Part shown: in pieces, positions 12,683-56,649 of the stretch
Layout: each line of letters opens with the position of its first letter
Numbering within the stretch: the stretch's first letter is position 1
Assembly: GCA_036873135.1 (NCBI GenBank)
Contig: JAPTYO010000007.1
Location: 12,382,763 to 12,446,762, forward strand
DNA: 64,000 nt
Reading direction: 5' to 3'
Origin: Clarkia xantiana subsp. parviflora
Taxonomy: Eukaryota; Streptophyta; Magnoliopsida; Myrtales; Onagraceae
Position numbers and translations under genes: made by a program
The notes under the pieces: generated by a model
Told to the model about the DNA's origin: nothing
Seen by the model: the letters and a program-made list of their open reading frames with translations, nothing else
Databases searched by the model: none

Positions 12683-19813
<7,131 letters not shown>

Positions 19814-32000: not shown

Positions 32001-32009
32001 TAAATTAAA

Positions 32010-32617
32010 GGGTTAAATGTACTTTTCATACCACATGTTTGACCGAATGTGACTTTTAGTACTGGAAGTTTAGTTTTGTATACTTTTGGTACCAAACGTT
32101 TGAAAAAATGTGGTTTTTCGTACATCCGTTAGTTGGCCGTTAGTTTTGGCCGTTAAATGACATGTGCAAGTCACGTGATCGACTCTAAACTTTTAATTTT
32201 GTTCAATTTAGTCCCTAAAATATATTCATAACTTTTATTTTGTTTAATTTAGTCCTGAAGCTTCAAAATCGAACCCAATTGGGACCTATCCCCAATTGGT
32301 TAAATTTGACCCAAATGAGGCTATGTCAATTGAATTCGATTAGTTTAATTGGGCCCGATTTTAAAGTGTTGTGACTAAGTTAAACAAAATAAAAGTTAGG
32401 AATATATTTGAGGGACTAAATTGAACAAAATTAAAAGTTTGGAGTCGATCACATGACTTGCACATGTCATTTAACAGCCAAAACTAACGGCCAACTAACG
32501 GATGTACCAAAAGCCACATTTTTTCAAACGTTTGGTACCAAAAGTATACAAAACTAAACATCCAGTACTAAAAGCCATATTCGGTCAAACATGTGGTATG
32601 AAAAGTACATTTAACCC
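32010..32617. mobile_element. Non-autonomous MULE (GGGTTAA family)
   Basis: A 608-bp element starting gggttaaatgtacttttcat and ending with its complement. The inverted arms are about 230 bp or more and highly matched, making almost the whole element a fold-back. Perfect 9-bp duplications TAAATTAAA flank it at 32001-32009 and 32618-32626. It has no protein-coding content. Confidence 0.92.
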
Positions 32618-34510: not shown

Positions 34511-34579
34511 TTAATCCAATTAATATGTGAATAAGTTTTCGTATTTTTGGCATTGATACTCTCTAGAGTGACATCCTAT

Positions 34580-34775
34580 TGAAGTATATATGTTGAATGA
34601 CCAAAGTTTACCTTCTCTAGTGTTACAGAGTGAAACTCAGTTAGCAATTCAGTTTTACATAGCTTAGTATATAATCAAGATTTGTACTCTGTAATCATCG
34701 CTGAGAATTCTTGACTCTCCACTTGCTGATTACATTCTTCAATTCTTCGTTCCAGATTCATACATTTGAACGAAA
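34580..34775 (+). repeat. 5' LTR of the outer copia element
   Basis: It matches 42115-42337 in order, with many substitutions and indels, so this element is much older than the inner one. Confidence 0.65.
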
Positions 34776-35090
34776 ACATGGTCTTAAGAACAAATTTTGT
34801 TGAATGAAAACATTGTTATTTGTTGGAGGTTACAAGTGTTAAGTGTATATGTGAGTGAGTTGTACCACTCCGGTTAGATTGAAGAGTTGGAATACTATAT
34901 AAGTTTGGTTGGCTATTCCTACTATTACCAATTGGTTTTAGTATGGAACCTCAGTGGGTATGGACTCGATCCCCAGTTTTAATCTCCCAATAACTGGTAT
35001 CAGAGCTGGTGGCTCGGTCCAGGAAGTTGACAAAGACACGAAGTGGTGAGTCCGGATAAGGGGGAGATTGTTAATTGTACATGTAAGTGG

Positions 35091-35398
35091 TTTTGAGGTC
35101 TTTGGGGACTGATTTATCAAGCTTGAATTTGTTCCCTAGTTGATATTCTATTTTGTTTGTGTATGTCCTGTAAATACTGATTAGTATTCTTTTATTTCTG
35201 TTTGGGCCTATTTGTTGTGTTCCTTCTATTTGTGGATCACTTTTTGATCACTTATATAGCTATTAGGATTGAAGTGGAGGTAGACCAAGTGAAGGAACTC
35301 TACATGAGAAGCTTCAAACGTTGCGTCTTTTCTTCTGCTAGGGTTTCTGTTCTTGATGAGTTTTCATATTTTCTTTCCTTCGATATGAGAGTTTATCA
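35091..35398 (+). repeat. 5' LTR of the inner copia element
   Basis: It matches 40422-40737 closely (ggtctttggggactgattta, taaatactgattagtattct, gaagtggaggtagaccaagt). The 3' copy has a short insertion (attttgtaaattg) relative to this one. Confidence 0.88.
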
Positions 35399-35566
35399 TG
35401 GTATCAGAGCAGAACATGCGTGATTTTGCGCCTTGTTCTCGTTCGCGTCTTTTCTTCTGCTAGGGTTTCTGTTCTTGATGAGTTTTCATATTTTCTTTCC
35501 TTCGATATGAGAGTTTATCATGGTATCAGAGCAGAACATGCGTGATTTTGCGCCTTGTTCTCGTTC
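35323..35566 (+). repeat. Tandem 122-bp duplication spanning LTR end and primer-binding site
   Basis: Bases 35323-35444 are repeated at 35445-35566 with essentially no differences. Each copy contains the LTR end (gagagtttatca), the tRNA primer site tggtatcagagc and the first leader bases (agaacatgcgtgattttgcg). The 3' LTR shows no such repeat. Confidence 0.92.
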
Positions 35567-35774
35567 CTGGCTTCTGCGATTCTGCTTGTTGATTATGTCG
35601 ATTCATCTTCGAGTTACGATTCGAAGTTCTTCGCAAACTGCGATTCGTTTCTGGATCTCCTCTGGTGGATTGGATTCTTGCGTTAACGATTCGTTGTTCA
35701 TCACGAACTGCGATTCGTTTCTGGCCTTCTTCTGACGCTTCGATATCTCGCGATTCAATCGATTACTGCCTACC

Positions 35775-36257
35775 ATGAATGGAAGCAAATCTGAAGAGAA
35801 GGATGACCGAAGCATACCTGATCCATCCAAATCTTCAACTGATAAGGCGGTGATCGATCTTTCTGGCTTCCCTGAGGTACATGCACATCACCCTCTATAC
35901 CTTCACCCCTCTAATAACGCTAGCCTGAGTTTTGTTGCCACGAAACTAGCCTCTTCTGATGATTATCCTATGTGGAGCCGTGCTATGTTCATTGCTTTGC
36001 ATGGTAAAGACAAACTCGGTTTCGTTAATGGTAGCTTTACTCGTGATAAGTTTGATGTCTCGCTGCATGATTTGTGGGATAGATGTGACATGGTCATGTT
36101 TGGATGGATTCTTAGTTCTGTTTCTCGTGATGTGGCCAACAGTATTATGTATCAGACCAGTGCCTATGTTGCCTGGAATGATCTCAAAACAAGATTTGAT
36201 AAGAAAAATGGTTCCAGGACCTATCAGTTGCATAGAGATATTATTCTTTCCAAATAA
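35775..36257 (+). pseudogene. copia gag, N-terminal part, ending in a stop
   Basis: 160 codons beginning MNGSKSEEKDD. It shows the copia gag (UBN2-like) pattern: PLYLHPSNNASLSFVATKL, then YPMWSRAMFIALHGKDKLGF, then LHDLWDRCDMVMFGWILSSV and AYVAWNDLKTRFDKKNGSR. A TAA at 36255 interrupts it, and gag sense continues directly afterwards (GLDDVTTNFTKLKFLWAEFD). The protein would package element RNA in virus-like particles. Confidence 0.82.
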
Positions 36258-36378
36258 GGCCTCGATGATGTCACAACCAATTTCACCAAACTGAAATTTC
36301 TTTGGGCTGAATTTGACTCTATCTGTGCCTTACCTTTTATCCCTGGCGATGATTTTCAGAAGCATCTTGATCACAAAG

Positions 36379-36475
36379 TCCGTATAGCCCTACTAAAAAT
36401 TGAAAATAAAAAAATGGTATCGTTTTCATTTCCTCATTAAGTAATGTATTCTTTGTTATTTGTAACCGGTTGCAG
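36379..36475 (+). other. 97-bp intron-like insert in gag
   Basis: Gag sense reads DHK just before and ENHRLFSFLMGLND just after. The intervening 97 bp carries stops, begins tccgtatag after AAAG, and ends with a pyrimidine-rich stretch and ggttgcag. Removing it restores the frame. Whether it is a true intron or a small insertion is open; the left boundary lacks a standard GT unless one G was lost. Confidence 0.5.
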
Positions 36476-36501
36476 AAAACCATCGTTTATTCAGTTTTCT
36501 C

Positions 36502-37494
36502 ATGGGTTTAAATGATAGTTGTTCTGCTATTAGAAGTCAACTGTTATTACTTGACCATTTGCCCTCTGTCAGTCAAGTTTATGGTATGTTGATTCAAGAA
36601 GAAAGCCAACGTGTGGTCTCCTTTGACATTTCTATCTCTTCTAATCCCATTTCTGGAAATGTTGGTATTAATGTTGACAAGCCCAAACGTTTTCTGAATC
36701 CCAACCTTGAATGTGATTTTTGCCACAAGAATGGTCATTCGACTGAGAGGTGTTATGATAAGGGGTGTGAATACTGTAAAAGGAAAGGACAATGTATGGA
36801 CAATTGTTTTAAATACAGAGATTTTGTTAAGGGAAAGGGATCTGTTCCTAAAGGAAATGCTGCCTCCTCTGGAATTGGTAGCACTTCAGATGACTCCCAA
36901 TCCCTTAACCTTAGTGTCCAATCCTCTTCTGACCCTTTGATCACCTTCACTTCAAACCAGTTTGAGAAATTTTTACAGACTATGAGGCATGGTAGTTCTA
37001 CTGCAGCTCCTAGTCAACCTTCTCAAACTTCTCAGGCAAATTATGCTGGTATTTCTCTTTCTAGCACTTCAAACTTTTTTCTTAATCATTGGATACTTGA
37101 CTCTGGTGCTACTAACCATATGAAAAATCGTTTAGATTGGCTTGAAAATTTTAAATCTGTCAGTGGACCCAAAGTTCAATTACCCAATGGTTCTCAATGC
37201 AATGTTTCTGGTGTTGGCAACCACTCCATTTTTAAAAACCTGAAAGTTCAGAATGTTCTTTACCTCCCGGATTTTAAATACAATCTTTTATCTATTTCTA
37301 AACTTCTCAAAGATCTGAACTGTTCAGTTACTTTCTTTTCCACTATTGCAATTTTACAGGATCTCTCAAGTGGGAGGGTATTGGGGAGTGGGAATGCTGA
37401 TTCTGGCCTCTATTTTTTAAACCTCTTTGTAATAAAACAGACACTATTAGTCTGCAGTCTACTATTGTTAATAATGCTGGTCTGTGGCATATGA
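36502..37494 (+). pseudogene. copia gag C-terminus and aspartic protease
   Basis: 330 codons. After the gag end (FLMGLND) it has a Cys-rich nucleic-acid-binding knuckle, CDFCHKNGHSTERC, followed by a second CEYCKRKGQCMDNC cluster. It then has the retroviral-type aspartic protease active site WILDSGATNHM and VQNVLYLPDFKYNLLSISKL. The frame is lost near 37430-37494, where it should flow into the pre-integrase domain. Confidence 0.85.
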
Positions 37495-38507
37495 GATTGG
37501 GACATGCTTCTCTAAGAGTTGTCCATTATATTGATTCTCTCAAATTTTTGAAAGTTAAAGATTCTGATGTTCACAACTGTACCATTTGTCCACATGTCAA
37601 GATTATTAGACCTAGTTTCCCTCTTTCTGATTCTAAAGCTGAGGCTCTTTTCAATCTTGTACACGCTGATTTTTGGGAGCCCTACCATTCTGTTACCCAT
37701 CATAATAAAAGATATTTTCTTACCTTGGTTGATGATTTTTCTAGAGTGACTTGGGTGTTTCTTATGCAATTTAAATCAGATGTTGCCCAGATTATAAAGA
37801 ACTTCATTGCCATGATTGAAACACAATTTAAGAGTAAAATCGGAATTTTTAGATCTGACAATGGTGGTGAATTCTTTAATGACCAAACTCGATCTCTTTT
37901 TTCCTGATATGGGCATCATTCATCAATCAAGTTGCTCTTACACACCACAACAAAATGGTAGGGTTGAGCGTAAACATAGACATTTATTAGAAATGACAAG
38001 GGCCTTGAAACTTCAATCTCATGTTCCTAATATGTTTTGGGGTAACTGTATTCTCACTGCTTGTTATCTCATAAATCTTTTACCTACCCCTGTACTGAAT
38101 GGAAAATCTCCCTTACAAATTTTAAGAGGATCTTTTGTCTCTGTCGAACACTTGAGAGTCTTTGGATGTTTAGCTTTTGCTAAGAATTTATTGGTGACTG
38201 ACAAATTTGCTAGTAGGGCAGCTCCTAGTGTTTTCCTTGGATATTCTGAAACTCAAAAATGTTACAAGCTTTATGATTTAGCAAATGAAAAATATTTTGT
38301 CAGTAGAGATGTAATATTCAAGGAAACTGTATTTCCATTTGCCCATAGCAAAACTGATCAGTTGCCTATTTTCTTTGAGCAACCACTCTCAACTGAGGTC
38401 AATGATTTCAATTTCCATGTTTTTCAAGATTATGAGGAATCAAATAATAATGATCATGTTCCTTCTGAGATTTTTCATAATGATGTTGAAGTTTCTGAGC
38501 TTATTTA
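37491..38507 (+). pseudogene. copia integrase (frameshifted)
   Basis: First frame, 37491-37907: MRLGHAS, the zinc-binding HH-CC remnants, the first catalytic Asp in LVHADFWEPY and the second in FRSDNGGEF. Second frame, from about 37895: SCSYTPQQNGRVERKHRHL with the catalytic Glu, then TPVLNGKSPLQILRG and VFLGYSETQKCYKLYD, stopping at 38507. One frameshift near 37890-37910 separates the halves. Confidence 0.85.
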
Positions 38508-38643
38508 AGATGATGAGGTTCTCATTTCCTCTGATATTGATGGTATTCATGCTACAGATATTCATGATGAAACTACTGAAGTTTCTGATCCCATTATTCC
38601 AGTTTCATCAGACATTACTCAGACTGGTCATCTTCCCCCAAAG

Positions 38644-39555
38644 ATGACCAAATTTGGTCGTGCTGTCAAGCCACCCATTTGGCAGCAATCTTATGGTATG
38701 AGCTATTGTTCCACTGATTATCCCATTTGCAACTATATTTCTTATAACAATTTATATGTTCCTTTTAGTTGCTTTATATCCTCTATTTCAAGGGCTAGTG
38801 AACCCAGATCCTTCACTGAGGCAAGTAAAGATCCAGCTTGGGTTTCAGCAATGCAAGATGAAATTCAAGCTTTAGAAGACAATGGTACTTGGAACTTGGT
38901 TCTTTTACCCTCAGGTAAGATTGTTATTGGGTCTAAATGAGTCTTTAGAATCAAGTATAAATCTGATGGAACTATTGAAAGATACAAGGCAAGACTAGTA
39001 GCCAAAGGTTTTAAACAAAAGTATGAGATTGATTATAATGAAACATTTTCTCATGTTGCTAAAATGAATACAATTAGAACTGTCATTGCCTTGACATCTA
39101 TTAATAGTTGGCATGTTTATCAGATGGATGTTTATAATGCCTTCTTACAATGTGATCTTTTTGAGGAAGTTTATATGTCCGTGCCCCCTGGATTTGAACC
39201 TGATTCTAACTTGGTCTGTCACTTAAGAAAATCTCTTTATGGTCTGAAACAAGCTTCTAGACAATGGAATATTAAACTTACAGAAGCTTTACTTTTATCT
39301 GGGTATTCTCAGTCTAAATTGGATTACTCTATGTTTACAAAGAAGGAGGGTGCAGACATTGTTATCTTGTTGGTATATGTTGATGACTTGCTCATTTCTG
39401 GCAATAGCTTGACTCTTATTTCTGAGATGAAATCTGTTTTGGAGAATAATTTTAAAATGAAAGACCTTGGTGATCTCAAATACTTAGTAGGTATTGAAGT
39501 TGCTAGGTCTGATGTTTGTATTGTTTTGTCCCAAAGAAAGTATTCTTTAGAGTAA
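38644..39555 (+). pseudogene. copia reverse transcriptase with nonsense changes
   Basis: It starts with FTEASKDPAWVSAMQDEIQA and TWNLV, and is broken by TGA at 38938-38940 where the family has Trp. It resumes as VFRIKYKSDGTIERYKARLV, then MDVYNAFLQCDLFEEVYM, KSLYGLKQASRQW and the polymerase active site LLVYVDDLLISGN. A TAA follows at 39553-39555. Confidence 0.87.
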
Positions 39556-40385
39556 ATTTCAGAAGTTAGTCTCTCTGGTAGTAAGCCATTCAGAACTCCT
39601 ATGGAGCATAATCTGAAACTTACCACTGTTGAGTATGATAAACATCTGGAAATTAACTTTGATGATGAGTTGTTAACTGATGTTGGTTCATATAGACGTA
39701 TCATTAGTAAATTGTTATATCTGACTATGACGAGGCCTGACATTTCTTTTGCTAACCAGAATCTGAGTCGGTTTCTTAAGAATCCTAAGGATTCTCATAT
39801 GCAGGCTGCTTTGAGAATTATTAGATATGTTAAGCTTGCCCCCTGGTAATGGTATCTTGCTTTCTTCTGCTTCTTTGCTTGTATTATCAGCCTATTGTGA
39901 CTTAGATTGGGGCAGTAACATTATTTATAGAATGTCTGTTTCTGGTTATGTGGTTTATGTTGGTAATTCAAAGGTCAAGAAACAGTCTACTGTTTCTAGG
40001 TCTTCTGCTGATGCTGAATATATCAACATGGGTAAGGTTCTAACATAATTGATTTGGTTGAGCAGGCTTTTAACTGAGTTGAGTTTTAACAATACTGCCC
40101 ATATTCCAATGTTTTGTGATAACAAAGCTGCTATCCAGATCACTTCTAATCATGTTTTCCAAACATATTGATATTGAATGTCATTTTATTCGTGACATGT
40201 TTCTTAAAGGTTTTGTGCAGCCTAGATATATTGCTTTTGAGAATCAACTGGCAGACTTGTTCACCAAGTCTTTATTGGGTCATCAGCATCATTACTTGCT
40301 TAGCAAGTTAGGTATGAAAAACATATTTTCTTCGGGTTCTGATTTGCTTGACAAGGTTTATGATGTGCAGGATTCTCAAGCTTGA
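39556..40385 (+). pseudogene. copia RNase H region and 3' end of pol
   Basis: Frames at 39601-39849, 39827-40048 and 40116-40385 carry SYRRIISKLLYLTMTRPDIS, then a piece with SRSSADAEYINM, then DNKAAIQI, HIDIECHFIRDM and ENQLADLFTKSLLGHQHHYL. Stops and shifts break it. A polypurine tract (gaggggga, 40384-40391) follows, before the 3' LTR. Confidence 0.85.
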
Positions 40386-40421
40386 GGGGGAGTTTTCGTG
40401 GTCTTCAAGCTTGATGGGGAT

Positions 40422-40737
40422 TTTTGAGGTCTTTGGGGACTGATTTATCAAGCTTGAAGACTTTGTTCCCTAGTTGTTATTCTATTTTGTATGTGTATGT
40501 TCTGTAAATACTGATTAGTATTCTTTTATTTCTGTTTGGGACTATTTGTGGTGTTCCTTCTATTTGTTGACCATTTTGTAAATTGATCACTTTTATAGCT
40601 ATTAGGACTGAAGTGGAGGTAGACCAAGTGAAGGAACTCTACCTGAGAAGCTTCAAACGCTGCGTCTTTTCCTCTGCTAGGGTTTCTGTTCTTGATGAGT
40701 TTTCATCTCTTCTTTCCTTCGATCCGAGAGTTTATCT
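40422..40737 (+). repeat. 3' LTR of the inner copia element
   Basis: It is the partner of 35091-35398 and ends tttatct just before the AGTGG target duplication. A second copy of ttcaagcttga lies just before its start, making the left edge ambiguous by up to about 30 bases. Confidence 0.85.
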
Positions 40738-42114
40738 AGTGGACTGTACCACATCGGTTAGATTGAAAAGTTGGAACACTATATAAGATATGGGCTACTC
40801 CTACTATTACCAATTGGTTTTAACCTGGAATATCAGTGGGGACTCGCTCCCCGGTTTTAATTTCCCAACAACAAGAACTCTGAAATTTCATGCATTCATT
40901 TCCGATAAGTTTTGGGGCCATTGTGTGTTAACATTATGTGTATTGATTGGTGAGACCCCTTTTGAAAGGCATTAGAAGGCAGACTACAATCATCTCAGGA
41001 TCTTAGGTTGACTTTGCCTTGTGTTGATGTAAGAGTTGCAAGCAAACTGAAACCATCATTTAGTGCATCATCATGAGTTATTCTCCTACACAAAAGTGTA
41101 TAAACTGATGGATATCTCTACTAGAGTGTTCTTTGTAAGCAGAGATATATATTATTTCTTATTGCATAAGAAGAATGATTTCAACATCTTCTCTTCAAGT
41201 CGGCGCATATGATATCTGCACAGAACGAAGAAATCAATGTTGCAGAAGTTGTTGATTCAACTGATGAGGAACATGATCAAAATAATGAACCTCCTCAAGA
41301 TACAGAAGTTGATATGATATGATATAAGTTCCTCTATAAGATATGTTGCTTACCAATCAAGTACTACATCCACTGCCACAACAGCCAGCTGCCATTCGAA
41401 GGTCCACAAGAAGAACACAATTATCAAGGGGATTGCAGATAGATTATATTTTTCCTTGCAAGGCTGTGAATAATAGTTACAGGAGTGACCCGTACATGTG
41501 TTTCCTTGGGGTTCTTGAAATGATTCATGAACTTACTTCTTTTCAAGAAGCAACACAAGATAAAAATTGGGTAGCTGTCATGAATAATGAGGTTGAAGCT
41601 CTGTAAGCAATAACACATGGGAAATAGTCGCTCTTCCAGTTAATAAGAAACTAGTTGGATGTAAATGGGTGATTTTAGAGTACAAAGCTCAAAATCAATT
41701 ATCTGAAACAACCGCCTACTGTAACATTGTTTGAAGTAAAAAAATAGGTCACAATAATCAAGTGTTGAAACGAAATATCTGAGCATGGAAATGTGCTTAT
41801 CTGAGATCATTTGTATCAGAGAAATTTGGCGGAGATGAAGTTGAGGATGACATGACCTAGTATGTTGAAATGGGATAATCAAGCAACAATTAAGATTTTT
41901 AAGAACCTTATGTTCCTAAAGTACATCAATGTTACTTTGTAAGAGATAAATTGGTGGATGGTGTCATATCAGCTGCTTATGTGAGCTCAGAAGAGCGACT
42001 CGCTGATTTACACACTAAGACATTACCAAAAGAACATGTTTTGCTGCTTAATTGCTTTGGCGTGGAGAATTTATATGAAACACTGAAGGAGTAAAAAAGG
42101 AGAAGAAGCTAGGA

Positions 42115-42337
42115 TGAAGTATATAAGTTGAAGGACTAAAGTTTATCTTCTCCAGAGTTACACGGCCAATGTATTAATAGTGGAACTTAGTTAGCAATTC
42201 GTTATACATAACTTAGTATATAAGCAAACTTTTGTACTCTATAATCATGGATGAGAATAAGCAGATCAAGTTAGGAAGATTCTTAACACTCCATTTTCTG
42301 ATTGAATTCTTCATCCAGATTCGTACATTTGAACTCA
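42115..42337 (+). repeat. 3' LTR of the outer copia element
   Basis: It follows a purine-rich tract (aaaaaaggagaagaagctagga) and ends aactca before TCCCA. It pairs with 34580-34775. Confidence 0.65.
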
Positions 42338-42497
42338 TCCCAAACACAATAGTTTTTGCACTATATCTCTGATCAAAGTAAACGTCGAAGGTGACGTGAC
42401 CATAATCAAATTTAATGGTACAAAAGAAGAGAGCTGTAACCCAAATGTCCATTATGAAGTGAAAATGGTAGTACTAATAGGAGCTAGTTAGAAATAA

Positions 42498-42992
42498 GGG
42501 TTAATAACCTATGAAATGTCTGATTTTTTACATATGTTAACCGGAAATGTCTGAATTTTCAACTTTGTTAATATAAGAGGTCTCCGTCAATTTTTCCCGT
42601 TAAAACCGACGGAATTTGGTCACATACTTGGCATGTGAACGGAAATAAACTTAAATCCTGAAAATGCCCTCCAACCAAAGTGTGTCCCTCACATGCTAAA
42701 CCTGAAAAGATGAAAATGTCCCTTAAAGTTAAAAAAAAAACATTATCTTAATTTGACTTCAGGGGTAATTTTGTCATTTCACATTTTCTCAAATAAGGTA
42801 TTAAATAAAAAAAATATTAAAAGGAGTAAAAGTGTCATTTCACACAATTCTGTTAAAGTTAACCCTAAAATTGGACGGAAAACCAAAACTTAACAAAGAT
42901 GAAAATTCAGACATTCCAAATTAACTTTTGAAAATTCTGACATCTCCGCTTAACATAGGTCAAAATTCAGACATTTCATAGGTTATTAACCC
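42498..42992. mobile_element. Non-autonomous MULE (GGGTTAA family) beside the SPH pseudogene
   Basis: A 495-bp element beginning gggttaataacctatgaaat and ending with the complement. Flanks are TAGAAATAA (42489-42497) and TTGAAATAA (42993-43001), a 9-bp duplication with one change. The interior has acggaatttggtcacatac and no coding sense. Confidence 0.87.
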
Positions 42993-43001
42993 TTGAAATA
43001 A

Positions 43002-43429
43002 ATATATATATATGGATAAATTTCACACACCATCGGACCTACAAAACACAATTTCAAACTTGTAATTTCAAATTCATCATAATCCAAACACCATAATATA
43101 TATATTAACTAAAGTTAGGACGGGTTCGAACTTTTCGGAATTTTAAGTAAAAAGCCCGAACTCAACCTTAGGTGAAAAGTTCTAACTGACGGAAGAGTTG
43201 TGATAGCGGTTCCGAATCTGACATTCCGATTCGGTTCCGACTGTTTCTAAATGGCAGCAGTCGTAATTTCCATCAACTCCTGGGGCATAAACAAAACACA
43301 CACAATCGGACTTCTTCGGAACAGGAGAATCGGAATGAGAATCATTTCCGCCGACGGAAACTCTATCTGATTTCAGGATGGTTTCATGTCGGATTTCGGA
43401 CCCTCAGCAGTCCATTACATCATATATAT
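43002..43429. other. Intergenic repeat-like stretch
   Basis: It contains text resembling 46620-46870 (tttcacacacca, aaacacaatttcaaac), so it is probably part of an older repeat or of the SPH duplication. No ends can be defined. Confidence 0.35.
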
Positions 43430-45060
43430 GCTAACAAATTGATAAGATAGATTAAGTTTGGTGTCTTTCTCTTAACTGCTATTGACACTCACGAAACATG
43501 CCGAATATGCATTTGACAAAACCAAATACATTTCTTTGTCATTTAGCCGTGTTTCTAAATTGTTTATTTACCCATTATAAGTTTGTTTCCAAAAGGAAAA
43601 GTCAAATATGGAGAACATTTACCAAAAAAAAATATGGAGAACATAAATGAATTATTAGTAATACAATTACTTAGTTGCCATATAAGTATTATTCAAATTA
43701 AGGAAGGAAAATTATTATCAGTTTTTAGTTGACCCTTTATTGTAATTAAGAATTCATTATAGTAATTATTTTTTAGAGTAATTATTTAGTGAGGGGCCGG
43801 TTACAAAGGAAAAGCGTCCGGATTAAACATGTACGGTTGGTTTGGCCAAAGTAAATGATGTTGAAACTAGCTTGATGACGAAAATTCGTAATCCACTTCA
43901 ACTTGATCGTGTCCTAATTACCTTTCGATCTAGAAAATTTGTAATTACGTCAACTATTAAACATTATTAAAAGAAGATGGTATCCGTAATTGGTGTATTA
44001 ACCTTGAACCAATCAGTTTCTGGGGTTCAAATGTTCTACTCATAGAAATTAGAGTAAAAATAATAAGAAATTAATAGGATGCAATAAGACATAATAAAAT
44101 AATTAATTAGACTAGATAGGGAATTATTATCAGTTATAATTAGATAGAAAATGATTACATAATAGAGTTGGGGGATTATTTAGTCCATTTGATAGTGAGG
44201 TCATGGACATGACCTTCTTCTTTAAAGCCATTGATACTCTGTGGAGTGACATCCCAATCGCAAAGTTTGGTGCACCTTTTAATATCTCTCTGAGCGTAGT
44301 AGACGTCAAAAACAGCTTGACCATAATCAGATTTAATGGTACAGAAGAAGAGAGTTGTAGCCCATACGTTCATTCTGAAGCTAAAAGTGTATTTCTGACC
44401 TGGCCATATATCATGGAACCCCAGGTCGTCGTTTTTGGACTTGCAGTGAACGTTGAATGATCCTGATGCAAACCTATTATACACTTCAACGTGTATCCTG
44501 GGATTCACATCCATCGGATCAATTCCACTTCCACTTCTAATTGAAGCAGAACAAGTCACCACACACACAGCTAGCAAAGCACCTAAAACCAACACAACAC
44601 CACTACCACTCCTCATTTTTCAACAATATCTATCAGAGCTATCTAGAAATACCCTTTTTTCTTCTTCTTTCTAATATAATTGAAAAATATTAATATATAC
44701 TACTAAAGTCGTGGACTATGAGTGACAAATGTCACCTAATTATCAATATTTTAATTGAAACTCCAGTTTTATTTATAAATAAAATATAATTCGATCCCTA
44801 TTATTTTAGTATATGACACTTATTATTTATTTTAGTATATGACACTTATTATTTTCCGTAACACATTAAGATCTCAATTATTAGTTTATAATATCTCATT
44901 CAATTCATACAAAAAAAAAAAACTAATCAGGTTTAAGTTTTGAATCTATGACTTGCGGACGCTATTGTAAATTTTATCATTTAACTCTCTTTTACTAGAT
45001 TATGAATTGTATTTACTCTAATCTAATGTCATACGAGAGTCTAATTTATAAGGAAAATTA
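43430..45060. repeat. SPH segmental duplication, unit 1
   Basis: The 3' flank (gataagat..., cgaaacatgccgaatatgca, gccgtgtttctaaat, aaattaaggaaggaaaatta), the gene at 44176-44616, and the promoter side (gacaaatgtcacctaattat) recur in the same order at 46880-52790 and 53285-56830. This unit is the most compact of the three. Confidence 0.8.
44176..44616 (-). CDS. S-protein homologue (self-incompatibility S1-like), copy 1
   Basis: A single exon of 146 residues; the SPH family is typically about 120-160. A signal peptide covers about residues 1-24 (VVLVLGALLAVCVVTCSA). The mature part carries the S1 fold marks: IHVEVYNRFASGSFNVHCKS, DDLGFHDIWPGQKYTFSF, TTLFFCTIKSDYG and AVFDVY, plus four spaced Cys (HCKSK, FFC, RC, LC). 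The first such protein is the secreted stigma determinant of poppy self-incompatibility; most family members are small secreted proteins of unknown role, and only that can be said here. The ATG is the first in frame, and a TA-rich run upstream (44690-44700) may act as TATA. It is nearly identical to copy 2 over its first 110 residues. Confidence 0.9.
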   Translation of the reverse strand: MRSGSGVVLVLGALLAVCVVTCSASIRSGSGIDPMDVNPRIHVEVYNRFASGSFNVHCKSKNDDLGFHDIWPGQKYTFSFRMNVWATTLFFCTIKSDYGQAVFDVYYAQRDIKRCTKLCDWDVTPQSINGFKEEGHVHDLTIKWTK

Positions 45061-45356: not shown

Positions 45357-46032
45357 GGGTTAATGATTCACTTCATACCATATGTTTGTATAAATCCACT
45401 GTTCATATCATATCTTTTATTTTTGTGTACCAATTCGGTACCGAACGTTTCCATTTTGTACCGTTTTCATACCTCCGTTAAAGTTCCGTCCATTTTGGTC
45501 GTTAAAAGTCACGTGTCATGCACGTGAGTGACCCTAAACTTTTGATTTTATTCAATTTAGTCCCACTATTCTAACTTTTAATTTGTTCAATTTAGTCCTC
45601 AAATTTCAATATCGAACCCTTGACCCAAATTGACCAAGCCGGACCTAGCTAGGCTAGGTCTGGCTGGGTCAATTGGGACCTAGCCCCAATTGAACCTCAG
45701 GTACGCTGGACCCAGGCGACCCGACCCAGGTTCGGACCTAGCCCTGGGCTAGGTCTGGCTAGGTCAATTTGGGTCAAGGGTTCGATATTGAAATTTGAGG
45801 ACTAAATTGAACAAATTAAAAGTTAGGAATATATTAGAGGGACTAAATTGAACAAAATCAAAAGTTTAGGGTCACTCACGTGCACAACACGTGACTTTTG
45901 ACGGCCAAAATGGATGGAACTTTAATGAGGTATGAAAACGGTACAAAATGGAAACGTTCGGCACCAAATTGTAAAAAAAAAAAGAAGATATGGTATGAAC
46001 AGTGGATTTTGTGAAAACATATGATATGAAGT
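45357..46032. mobile_element. Non-autonomous MULE (GGGTTAA family), right terminus lost
   Basis: It begins gggttaatgattcacttcat, with inverted arms through cataccatatgtttgt, cgtccattttggtcgttaaa and gtcacgtg. The complement on the right ends at gatatgaag without the terminal TTAACCC. The centre is an unusually GC-rich palindromic patch (cctagctaggctaggtctgg, near 45640-45770). No clear target duplication is left. Confidence 0.75.
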
Positions 46033-46330: not shown

Positions 46331-47514
46331 TTGTATTTGGACTCAGTCTTGGGACATCCGAAAATTCTGAGAACGAGCATTTTTCTGAAGAAAACAAAAA
46401 ACAAAAAACTCGCACATTCTGTCACTGATAGGGAAGGGGCTTACCTCGGAACAGAACATGCTAGTTTTTTGTTTTTAATTTTTTTTTCTAAAAAATGGCC
46501 CAATCTCATAATTTTCGGATTCACTATCCAGTATCCCAAGACCGAATCCAAGTGTAAGGAAATAGTCTGATCCGAGTTTGGGATTTCGGGACAGGTTTGG
46601 ACTAGCCTGAAATTTAAACAAAAGTATGTTGCAAACACCATTTCAAACATCACAAACTTAAAGAACACTATTTCAAACACCACTTCCAAACTTAGAAAAA
46701 CCACATTTCACACACCATTAAACCTAAAAATCACAATTTCAAACTTTATTCTAGTCCAAACTGAGCTGATAAAAAGTCCCGCTCGGGAGAGCTCGTGTCT
46801 ACTTTCAGGATTTACTCGTATCCGATTCACTGAAATTTCGGACTTCTCAGATTTTGTTCTTCCCTATCCATGATATCATCATGTATGATGTATCTACATA
46901 TTATAGTACTAACGAATAGATAAGATTAGCTTTGGAGTTTTTCTCTTAACTTCCATTGACACTCGCGAAACATGCCGAATATGCATTTGACAAAGAGCAG
47001 TGCTAAAATACATTTCTTTGTCATTTAGCCGTGTTTCTAAAAAAATTATTTATTAACCAAAAAAAATTATTTATTTACCCATATAAGTTTGTTTCCAAAA
47101 GGAAAAGTCTTGGTAAAAAAAAAAAAGGAAAAGTCAAATATGGAGAACATTTACCAAAAAAATATGGAGAACATAAATGAATTATCAGTAATACATACAT
47201 TTACTTAGTTTTTTTTTCTGCCAAAAATACATTTATTTAGTTGCCATATAAGTAGATATATATATATAGGTTGACCCATTATTCAAATTAAGGAAGGAAA
47301 ATTATTATCAGTTTTTAGTTGCCCTTTATTGTAATTATGAAATTATAGTAATTAATTTTTAGAGTAATTATTTAGTGAGGGCCCGGTTACAAAGGAAAAG
47401 CGTCGTCCTCACAATTCCAGATTAAACATGTACGGTTTGGCTAAATACGTCAATTGACTTGAAAGTAAATGAATTTGAAACTATTAAACATTATTAAAAG
47501 GAGATGGTAGTTCA

Positions 47515-52001: not shown

Positions 52002-52448
52002 TTATTTAGTCCATTTGATAGTGATGTCACGTAAATGGGCGGGACCTTCATCTTTATACCCAAAGATGGCATCTGAAAATGCATCCCAAATGCAGAGTTT
52101 GCTGCACCTTTTGATGTCTCTCTGGGCGGAGTAGACGTCGAAGACAGCGTGACCATAATCAGATTTAATGGTACAGAAGAAGAGAGTTGTAGCCCATACG
52201 TTCATTCTGAAGCTAAAAGTGTACTTTTGACCTGCCCATATATCATGAAACCCCAAGTCGTCGTCCTTGGACTTACAGTGAATGTTGAATGATCCTGATG
52301 CAAACCTGTTTACCACTTCAACGTGTATCCTGGGATTCGCATCCGTCGGATCAATTCCACTTCCACTTCTAATTGAAGCAGAACAAGTCACCACACACAC
52401 AGCCAGCAAAGCACCTAAAACCAACACAACACCACTACCACTCCTCAT
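52002..52448 (-). CDS. S-protein homologue, copy 2
   Basis: A single exon of 148 residues with the same signal peptide and SPH fold as copy 1 (HCKSKDDDLGFHDIW, TTLFFCTIKSDYGHAVFDVY, four Cys). It differs at only about eight positions over the first 110 residues. The stretch after the third Cys (SKLCIWDAFSDAIFGYKDEG) is strongly diverged from copy 1. The shared end DxTIKWTK is restored, with one extra residue before it. A TATATATA run at 52543-52552 (minus strand) is a plausible TATA box about 100 bases before the ATG. Confidence 0.9.
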   Translation of the reverse strand: MRSGSGVVLVLGALLAVCVVTCSASIRSGSGIDPTDANPRIHVEVVNRFASGSFNIHCKSKDDDLGFHDIWAGQKYTFSFRMNVWATTLFFCTIKSDYGHAVFDVYSAQRDIKRCSKLCIWDAFSDAIFGYKDEGPAHLRDITIKWTK

Positions 52449-52794
52449 TTTTCAACAAAATCTATCAGAGCTATCTAGAAAGACCCTTTTTTCTTCTTCT
52501 TCTTTCTAATATATAATTGAGAAATATAAATCATGACCTCTCTATATATATACTACTAAAGTTGTGGACTATCACTGACAAATGTCACCTAATTATCAAT
52601 AATTTAACTGAAACTCCAGTTTTATTTAAAAAAAAAAAAAAAAAACTCGAACCATTATTATTTTAGTATAGAACACTTATTATTTTATTTATCATTTGAC
52701 TATCTTTTACAAGATTATGAATTGTAGTTACCTAATCTAATGTCATACGAAATGTCTAATTAATAGGGAAAAGATAAAAACATTTTATACAGCA

Positions 52795-53155: not shown

Positions 53156-54000
53156 TATAAAAATGTTTTTCAAACATTTTGTATATTTAATATTTTTTTT
53201 TATAATCTGTATATTTAATATAACTATCTCAATGAAATATATTTGTATATTATCACGATTTTTTTTTATATAGCGTACCCATTATGAGACGCCACTACTG
53301 CCAATAACAAATAGATAAGATTAGGTTTGTTTTCTTTCTCTTAACTTTCATAGACACTCGCAAAACATGCCGAATATATGTATGATATGATTATGATATG
53401 CATTTGATCAAATACAACATTTGTTTTAAAAAAAATCAAATATATATAACATGCCTTTGTTCATTAAACTGTGTTATTAATATATTTAGTAATTAGTCAT
53501 TAATTCGCGTTTTGTGCAAAATTGATCGTAAATGATATATGTTATAATATTTATTATCTTTTTTGCAGTCTGTGCAAAAGTTTTTATTAGTTTCATATAT
53601 ATTAAAAATATTTAGACATTTTTCCTAATTAATTTATTATGTTAATGTACATATTAAATATACATTACATGTAATTAAGAAGCTTTTCACATCTATTTTC
53701 AGATGAAACAATAGGTTGTACTTGTACCAAAATATACACCCGCGAAACATGCCGAATATCCATTTGACAAAACCAAAATACATTTCTTTGTCATTTAGCC
53801 GTGTCTCTAAATTATTTATTTATTTACCCATATAAGTTTGTTTCCAAAAGAAAGTCAAATATGGAGAATATTTATAAATAAAAAAATATGGAGAACATTT
53901 AATACATTTACTTAGTTGCCATATAAGTAGATATATATGTTGACCCATTATTATTCAAATTAAGGAAGAAAAATTATTATCAGTTTTTAGTTGACCCATT

Positions 54001-54665: not shown

Positions 54666-55377
54666 GGGAATAGAACCTAAAAACTGTCCCAATTTTGACA
54701 CGAGTGTCAGTTTGGTGTCTCAATTTTAAACTGTTGATATTTAGTGTCCAAATTTTCAGTTTTGTGTCTATTTGGTTTTCTATTAGATTTTGGGGTTAAG
54801 TTTAACAGATTGAGTTGAAAAGACTATTTTGCACTTCTTCTTTTTTTTAAAGCCTTTGATTCCGGCCACCCCTATTCCGGCCACCCACCTCCAGCCACCC
54901 ACCTCCAATCGGTCGGAATCGGCCGGAACCCTAAACCGGAGCTGCTTAATCCTAAATCGGCAAGAATAGGCCGGTAATCGGCCGCAATTGGCCATAATCG
55001 GTCGGAATCAGAACGGGTTCAGCCGAAATCGGGGTGGGTTTGGCCGGAATCTGGTGGGTTTGGTCGTAATCGGCCGGAATAGGGGTGGTTTGGCCGCAAT
55101 ACGTCGAAATCGGGTGGGTTTGGCTGCAATCGGCCGGAATCGGGTGGGTTTGGTCGGAATCGGCCGGAACCTAATTATGGTCATGGGGTATTTTTGGAAT
55201 TTTGAAAATTGACAACTCACGTGATAATCACGTGACTAGATTCCGTTCAACTTAATCCCAAAATTTAATAGAGACACAAAATAGCAACACATATGAAAAT
55301 TGGGATATTGAATTTCAACCTCAGACACCAAACTGACCCACGAGTCAAATTTGTTAGTGTTTTTAGGTGATATTCCC
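54666..55377. mobile_element. Non-autonomous MULE (GGGAATA variant)
   Basis: A 712-bp element starting gggaatagaacctaaaaact and ending tgatattccc. Inverted arms share cgagt and cagtttggtgtct. Perfect 9-bp duplications TAAAATAAA lie at 54657-54665 and 55378-55386. The centre contains a GC-richer array of tcggccggaat / gggtgggtttgg units (55000-55170). Confidence 0.88.
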
Positions 55378-55462: not shown

Positions 55463-55933
55463 TTACAAAATAGTAGAGGTGGATTTATTCCATTGGATAG
55501 TGATGTCATGTACATGGATGGGACCCACATCTTTATAACCATCGATGGCATCTGGACATACATCCCAAACGCAGAGTTTGCTGCACCTTCTGTAATCTCT
55601 CTTGGCGGAGTAGACGTCGAAGACGGCTCGACCAAATTCAGATTTAACGGTACAGAAGAAGAGTGTTGTATCCCAAAAGTTGATTCTGAAGCTAAAAGTG
55701 TACTTCTGACCTGGCCATATATCATGGAACCCTAAGTCGTCGTCCCTGGACTTGCAGTGAATATTGAATGCTCCTGATGCAAGCCTGTTGTACACTACAA
55801 CGTGTATCCTCGGAATCAACACTACATCATCTCTACTTCCACTTCTAATTGAAGCAGAAGAAGAAGAAGAAGTCACCACACACACAGCCATCAAAGCACC
55901 TAAAACCGACAACGCACCACCACCACTCCTCAT
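55463..55933 (-). CDS. S-protein homologue, copy 3
   Basis: A single exon of 156 residues. The signal peptide is followed by a Ser-rich stretch (SSSSSASIRSGSRDD). SPH marks are HCKSRDDDLGFHDIWPGQ, TTLFFCTVKSEFGRAVFDVY and four Cys. It is more diverged from copies 1 and 2 than they are from each other, and the C-terminus extends by a few residues (NKSTSTIL) in place of the KWTK ending. The promoter side has ctctatatatact (56041-56053), a candidate TATA on the minus strand. Confidence 0.88.
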   Translation of the reverse strand: MRSGGGALSVLGALMAVCVVTSSSSSASIRSGSRDDVVLIPRIHVVVYNRLASGAFNIHCKSRDDDLGFHDIWPGQKYTFSFRINFWDTTLFFCTVKSEFGRAVFDVYSAKRDYRRCSKLCVWDVCPDAIDGYKDVGPIHVHDITIQWNKSTSTIL

Positions 55934-56138
55934 TTTTCAACAAAATCTCTACCAAGCTAGGTATCTAGAAAGACCTTTTTCTTCTTCTTTCTAATCTAAT
56001 TGAGAAATATAAATCATGGTCCATCATATCATGTATATTTCTCTATATATACTACTAAAGTTGTGAAGTTATGGGTAACAAATCTCACCTAATCAGCAAT
56101 ACTTTTTTAAGGATTCTAGGTGTATTTCATAAAAGAGA

Positions 56139-56649
56139 GGGTTAAGAATTTATAAACTGTCTGAATTTCCGAATGTTGAAATTTGGTGTCTAAAGTTTGA
56201 AATGTTAAAATGGACAACATCGGGTTTCATTTTTGTTGAAATTTGGTGTCGCCGCGCGTCTTTTCATCCATCTTCAAGCATTTTCAATAACTGACTCGCC
56301 CACTTATATAATTCACATCACTCTTTACTTTTGACAAAATCGTCAAATTTCACTCAAAAAGTTGAACATCCAAAAGAAAAGGTTTCCAGTAGAGTGGTGT
56401 GGAGCGATTTTCAGCGACTTGTGGCGTGGTGCGCGAATGTGGTCAGCTTCTTATGTGACGGTCTCGGCAAAAGTGACAGGAAGGAAGAATACATGGGAGC
56501 TCGAATTTGACAGTCGGTTTCGTCGGGATTGACTTCTCTAAAGTAATCACACTGAGACACCAAATTTCTACTAAAATAAAACCTGAAACATGCAATTTAA
56601 ACGTCAGAAACCAAAATATGACTATTATTTTGGTATAGGTTCTTAACCC
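56139..56649. mobile_element. Non-autonomous MULE (GGGTTAA family), sister of the kinase-intron copy
   Basis: A 511-bp element beginning gggttaagaatttataaact and ending aggttcttaaccc. The interior matches 15361-15892 in reverse orientation (ttgacttctctaaagtaatc, acgatt/aatcgt blocks). Flanks are TAAAAGAGA and TAAAATAAA, a 9-bp duplication with two changes. Confidence 0.82.

Follow-up and report, generated by a model that had tools for sequence, protein, structure and literature searches.

A window of 64,000 nucleotides from Clarkia xantiana subsp. parviflora (assembly GCA_036873135.1, contig JAPTYO010000007.1, positions 12,382,763–12,446,762 of the forward strand; G+C content 33.7%) contains three retrotransposons that are nested one within the other and inserted in a sequence derived from a self-incompatibility-like gene of the S-protein homologue (SPH) family. 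A Ty1/copia element (the outer copia) lies in the SPH-derived sequence, a terminal-repeat retrotransposon in miniature (TRIM) lies in the outer copia, and a second Ty1/copia element (the inner copia) lies in the 3′ long terminal repeat (LTR) of the TRIM. The insertions occurred in that order, because target duplications and flanks that can be rejoined are found at every level. A three-level nest had been proposed in an earlier sequence-only reading of this DNA, and it is confirmed here. The SPH copy interrupted by the nest is today a dead remnant. The sequences concerned are the following (positions refer to the window):

34551–34578, minus strand: SPH remnant, C-terminal-side piece, including target duplication TCCTA (34574–34578); 25/28 identical to 44229–44256
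34579–42337, plus strand: outer copia, old and internally deleted (LTR pair and pol remnants found by tblastn)
34579–34774, plus strand: outer copia 5′ LTR, ends approximate (alignment to 42115–42337)
34837–40870, plus strand: TRIM, 382 bp without the inner copia (LTRs, TGGTATCAGAGC, GATAAGGGGGAGAT and ACAAG duplications)
34837–34992, plus strand: TRIM 5′ LTR, 156 bp (aligned to both halves of the 3′ LTR)
35069–35090, plus strand: first 22 bp of the TRIM 3′ LTR, with AGTGG at the end (alignment to the 5′ LTR)
35091–40737, plus strand: inner copia, the youngest element (LTRs, AGTGG 5/5 and Pfam domains)
40743–40870, plus strand: other 128 bp of the TRIM 3′ LTR (alignment to the 5′ LTR)
42115–42337, plus strand: outer copia 3′ LTR, ends approximate (alignment to 34580–34772)
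42338–42466, minus strand: SPH remnant, middle piece, including target duplication TCCCA (42338–42342); 93/122 identical to 44176–44619, with a 7-bp gap
44176–44619, minus strand: intact SPH reading frame, taken as reference paralogue (Pfam PF05938, E = 1.5e-25)
52002–52451, minus strand: intact SPH reading frame (Pfam PF05938)
55463–55936, minus strand: intact SPH reading frame (Pfam PF05938)

The outer copia is inserted in an SPH-derived sequence

When the region of the reference paralogue (44100–44700) was compared with the window by BLAST, the sequences at both sides of the outer copia were recovered as matches at 34551–34576 (92% identity, E = 6e-5) and at 42336–42465 (75% identity, E = 1.1e-20), the latter starting at position 44250 of the paralogue. 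On the paralogue both matches overlap at 44250–44254, and two extra bases of this overlap correspond to the final CA of the LTR. The target duplications of the outer copia, which are identical at 4/5 positions, equal 44252–44256 of the paralogue, and the insert comprised between them is of 7,759 bp. The sequence-only reading had named these two flanks, had placed the SPH fragments 7.76 kb apart and had stated that they rejoin at one place of the intact paralogue; the alignment bears out the three statements, and the place is the target duplication itself.

The left SPH piece is short (28 bp), a point in favor of the pieces being a chance similarity or sequences carried by the transposon. Against this, the 28-mer was scored at 127,946 placements along both strands of the window, and more than 19 identities were obtained only at the paralogue (28) and at 34551–34578 (25), which rules out chance similarity of the left piece; the E-values of both BLAST matches argue in the same direction, and the junction of the pieces coincides with the target duplication, both of them lying outside the LTRs. 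We attribute next to no likelihood to this explanation; its first form, chance similarity, had also been dismissed in the sequence-only reading. An overlap of the fragments other than the one described above, or their origin in different paralogues, would likewise have spoken against a single split copy, and neither was encountered. The left piece is identical to 44176–44619, 52002–52451 and 55463–55936 at 25/28, 15/28 and 18/28 positions, respectively, and the right piece at 93/122, 93/122 and 88/122. The former is nearest to the reference paralogue and the latter is equally near to that one and to 52002–52451, without conflict among these identities, the pieces being too short for a tree.

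As aligned (34580–34772 and 42117–42334), the LTRs of the outer copia present 24 differences at 180 sites and five internal indels. Their similarity runs along 34580–34771 and up to 42334, so the ends of the element have a freedom of 1–3 bases, and the target duplication was used to fix the final ones. At fixed ends and with equal base frequencies, a duplication of at least 4/5 positions has a probability of 0.016 of occurring by chance, and one of 5/5 positions has a probability of 0.001. For the coding remnant of the outer copia, 40876–42116 was searched by tblastn with five queries, all of them pieces of the inner copia pol (no gag or protease). Three of the five match: the 3′ end of pol (E = 3.7e-11), which from its position we take to be RNase H, integrase (E = 2.5e-10) and the piece that precedes the core of the reverse transcriptase (RT; E = 1e-8). 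Copia-type pol located between LTRs, together with a target duplication, identifies the element as Ty1/copia. Its 5′ LTR and the TRIM are only about 60 bp apart, and the TRIM lies already at integrase codons; therefore, most of the 5′ coding part of the outer copia appears to have been lost.

The TRIM is inserted in the integrase region of the outer copia

Two bases past its 5′ LTR, the TRIM includes the primer-site-like sequence TGGTATCAGAGC (34995–35006), presumably complementary to initiator tRNA-Met, and the purine tract GATAAGGGGGAGAT (35055–35068) precedes the 3′ LTR. The LTRs, of 156 and 150 bp, present 23 differences at 150 sites and 2 indels, and the 3′ LTR, once its halves are put together, has no gap relative to the 5′ LTR at the point where the inner copia is inserted. 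The stretch between the LTRs is of 76 bp, too short for a retroelement protein. The element combines short direct repeats, a length below 1,000 bp, the lack of any protein, a target duplication in the 4–6 bp range, a primer-binding site and a polypurine tract, as TRIMs do. No Rfam family was found at gathering score over the whole window. The TRIM shows no sign of being of the Cassandra type, which we take to be the one that carries 5S sequences.

The target duplication of the TRIM, ACAAG, is exact (5/5; 34832–34836 and 40871–40875). When its flanks are joined, they read in one frame as KHCYLLEVT followed by RTLKFHAFISDKFWGHCVLT, beginning KHCYLLEVT/RTLKFHA, and the codon for R straddles the join. 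The peptide of this empty site shows 26/67 identities with the integrase of the inner copia (BLASTP E = 6e-14 in a single-protein comparison), and at the left flank six of nine residues are identical (KH, LLE and T). As the joined flanks read like a copia integrase, the TRIM entered the outer copia within its integrase region, and the order of these two insertions is settled without recourse to a clock.

The inner copia is inserted in the 3′ LTR of the TRIM

The inner copia is flanked by an exact AGTGG duplication (5/5; 35086–35090 and 40738–40742) located within the 3′ LTR of the TRIM, and its LTRs (35091–35398 and 40422–40737) present 18 differences at 308 sites and 2 indels. Both placements, the TRIM inside the outer copia and a younger copia inside the TRIM 3′ LTR, agree with those of the sequence-only reading. 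On five of the seven frames submitted, Pfam domains are found in the order Retrotran_gag_3, Pol_BBD, gag_pre-integrs, rve, SH3_retrovirus and RVT_2; the two other frames, 38509–38940 and 40083–40385, gave no Pfam match. The presence of gag, of integrase before RT, of LTRs and of a target duplication corresponds to a Ty1/copia element, the coding region of which, interrupted by stops and by changes of frame, is now spread over several frames. A search with its RT returned 6027 proteins, the best of the 120 listed being from Solanum stoloniferum (65% identity); it is an ordinary copia RT. When the outer limits of the element (35091–35105 and 40728–40742) are drawn at the AGTGG duplication, its 5′ LTR starts with TTTTGAGG and not with TG. 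The 5′ and 3′ LTRs end in ATCA and ATCT, respectively. Non-canonical LTR ends have been reported (PMC5659011).

Two tandem duplications are located within the inner copia:

35323–35566, plus strand: perfect tandem duplication of 122 bp over the end of the 5′ LTR, the primer-binding site and the leader (122/122 at offset 122)
40376–40433, plus strand: imperfect tandem duplication of 29 bp over the purine tract and the start of the LTR (Tandem Repeats Finder, 86% matches)

The former, which Tandem Repeats Finder reports as 35319–35566 with 99% matches, provides the inner copia with two primer-binding sites, and the latter is situated at the opposite end of the element. Because the 122-bp copies are identical whereas the LTR pair has diverged by about 6%, this duplication probably postdates the insertion of the inner copia; the same pattern would be seen after conversion between them or with a faulty assembly.

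LTR divergence and the order of the insertions

Divergence of each LTR pair was calculated as Kimura two-parameter (K2P) distance, with 95% intervals from 5000 bootstraps; the counts are identical under three alignment settings. The distance is 0.061 (0.037–0.090) for the inner copia, the lowest of the three, and 0.147 (0.089–0.213) for the outer copia. The value of the inner copia is below that of the TRIM in 99.9% of the bootstraps and below that of the outer copia in 99.6%. When transversions alone are considered, the values follow the nesting order (outer copia, 12/180 or 0.067; TRIM, 7/150 or 0.047; inner copia, 10/308 or 0.032), albeit from few sites. By the LTR clock, the inner copia is the last arrival, and the outer copia and the TRIM are left without an order.

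Several observations weigh against the history proposed here. The K2P distance of the TRIM LTRs, 0.175 (0.108–0.259), is above that of the outer copia, with overlapping intervals, and the outer copia exceeds the TRIM in only 29% of the bootstraps. The target duplication of the outer copia includes one mismatch, and the ends of the element were partly set by that duplication; the 5′ LTR then starts with TTGAAG and not with TG. For the RT-core piece of the inner copia, the match in the outer remnant reaches no better than E = 0.65, and another of the pol pieces gave no tblastn match in 40876–42116. Lastly, no Pfam match was obtained for the 61-amino acid peptide of the empty site at E-values up to 10.

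As to the order of events, the geometry of the nest outranks the LTR clock. In a survey of plant genomes, an inner element with LTRs more divergent than those of the outer one is reported for 25% of nested pairs (1042/4126; PMC7251063). The sequence-only reading had staked its order on no inner element dating as older than the outer one. This holds for the inner copia, which is the youngest; it does not hold, by point estimate, for the TRIM relative to the outer copia, a difference that is not significant. The locus is a clean worked example of nesting that fixes an order which the LTR clock fails to fix, and it calls for caution when short and old LTR pairs are dated.

State of the SPH copy at the time of insertion

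The interrupted sequence is a fourth SPH copy, located to the left of the three intact frames and on the same strand, which is broken and split by the 7,759-bp insert. About 152 bp of it are left, matching 159 bp of the approximately 444-bp paralogue (about 36%); neither the N-terminal half nor the C-terminal tail is present, the frame is broken by the 7-bp gap relative to 44176–44619, and it includes no complete reading frame for the S1-like domain (PF05938). The SPH similarity stops near 34549 (ungapped alignment, with background to the left) and near 42470–42476, and neither of these points is the end of an LTR element. About 30 bp to the right of the last SPH similarity, a further element was found:

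42498–42992, strand not assigned: element of 495 bp resembling a miniature inverted-repeat transposable element (MITE), with perfect terminal inverted repeats of 23 bp and flanks TAGAAATAA and TTGAAATAA (8/9 match)

Just to the right of this MITE-like element no SPH sequence was found, either by tblastn with the whole SPH protein (E up to 10) or by blastn of 43003–43500. The right SPH piece differs at 29/122 sites both from 44176–44619 and from 52002–52451, which differ from each other at 10/122; it is therefore an older or a faster-decaying copy.

The missing ends, the gap in the frame, the excess of differences and the lack of SPH sequence beyond the MITE-like element favor an insertion of the outer copia in a copy that by then was truncated and dead, with no loss of gene function. 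This has, in our estimation, about an even chance. On the other side, the right piece contains a stretch of 35 amino acids without any stop (tblastn E = 3.5e-11), and the whole decay could be later than the insertion. Nei-Gojobori dN/dS values for these 35 codons are 0.44, 0.52 and 0.91 for the pairs including the remnant and 0.15, 0.39 and 0.76 for the intact pairs; as they overlap, relaxed selection on the remnant is not demonstrated.

The sequence-only reading had maintained that an SPH gene was cut, that is, that the outer copia hit and killed an intact gene, truncation and frameshift coming later. The strand and the array that the copy shares with the three intact SPH frames, and the rejoining of its pieces at the target duplication, are in agreement with this; against it, both gene ends are absent and nothing directly indicates that the gene was intact when hit. 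We give this course of events slightly less than an even chance. Either course is a variant of the history proposed here. From the earlier claim, the SPH origin of the target stands; the intactness of the gene when hit is more than the evidence supports, in view of the missing ends and of the 7-bp gap that breaks the frame.

The SPH cluster and neighbouring repeats

A protein search with SPH recovered three proteins among 39 candidates, the best one with 62% identity. The sequence 43421–43838, situated past the nest and before the first SPH gene, is found again by blastn at 46897–47437 and partly in 53305–54000; these are therefore repeated intergenic blocks common to the SPH cluster. In literature searches on SPH together with pseudogenes or transposons, on TRIMs and nests and on LTR ends, no title among the matches listed deals with the splitting of an SPH gene by a transposable element, which is weak evidence of absence, most matches of the larger searches being unlisted.

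The element at 42498–42992 is short and has terminal inverted repeats and a target duplication, as MITEs have; the list of open reading frames (ORFs) contains none of at least 100 amino acids within it, this list being the only search made for coding content. Diverged blastn relatives of its right part are present at 15352–15470, 15792–15893, 54716–54849 and 56138–56247. Another family of inverted-repeat elements is represented by a long inverted repeat at 45370–46032, with arm pairs 89–97% complementary and with blastn relatives at 2559–2779 and 32005–32558.

A tandem duplication of 158 bp (95%) is located at 16717–17022, between frames that we interpret as IRE-like kinase exons, an interpretation for which the upstream frame, 13891–15354, was the only one searched. 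The search with this ORF returned 239 proteins, and all of the 120 listed carry PF26031 (IRE-like N-terminal, by its name). Among the matches listed, the best two show 62% and 64% identity, and those from Gossypium and Ilex show 53% and 55%, respectively.

Discussion

The history of the nest would have started with a tandem SPH cluster holding a further SPH-derived copy, oriented as its three intact neighbours. The outer copia was inserted in this copy, generating a 5-bp target duplication, and at some time a deletion probably removed most of its 5′ coding part; the TRIM entered the remaining integrase region, and the inner copia the 3′ LTR of the TRIM. Each insertion may well have been an ordinary, integrase-mediated one. 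Taken as a whole, this succession (SPH-derived target, outer copia, TRIM, inner copia) is very probably correct.

By analogy with S-loci, it could be supposed that the outer copia put an end to a functional SPH gene with a role in pollen–pistil or mating-type recognition, and that the cluster is a low-recombination region collecting retrotransposons. The S-locus for distyly in Turnera holds an SPH gene, and S-loci accumulate transposable elements (PMC9862265). No observation in the window links the SPH cluster to a mating-type locus or to a role in self-incompatibility, and we consider this supposition very improbable.

SPH genes form a large family: up to 100 have been cited for Arabidopsis, none of them or of other SPHs with an ascribed function up to 2011 as stated in PMC3166141, and 1552 family members were used in another study (PMC9862265). 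The three neighbours in the window belong to this family (PF05938); the interrupted copy, a remnant, does not count as a gene. For the SPH family, one more decayed tandem copy is documented and no new question is opened. The loss of S-RNase in citrus through transposable elements, the topic of PMC11022811, concerns transposable elements at self-incompatibility genes; SPH is a different family.

The event described here is an ordinary one in plant genomes, where nested LTR retrotransposons, TRIMs and decayed or transposon-interrupted copies of gene families are known kinds. TRIMs have been described as elements of less than 1,000 bp with target duplications of 4–6 bp, and layered nested insertions have been described as well (PMC4717578); the 382-bp element with its 5-bp duplication agrees with those TRIMs in size and in duplication length. 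As in other nested LTR retrotransposons of plants, each element lies within another and has its own LTR pair and target duplication, so that the nest does not differ in kind from them; it comprises three levels, one of them a TRIM.

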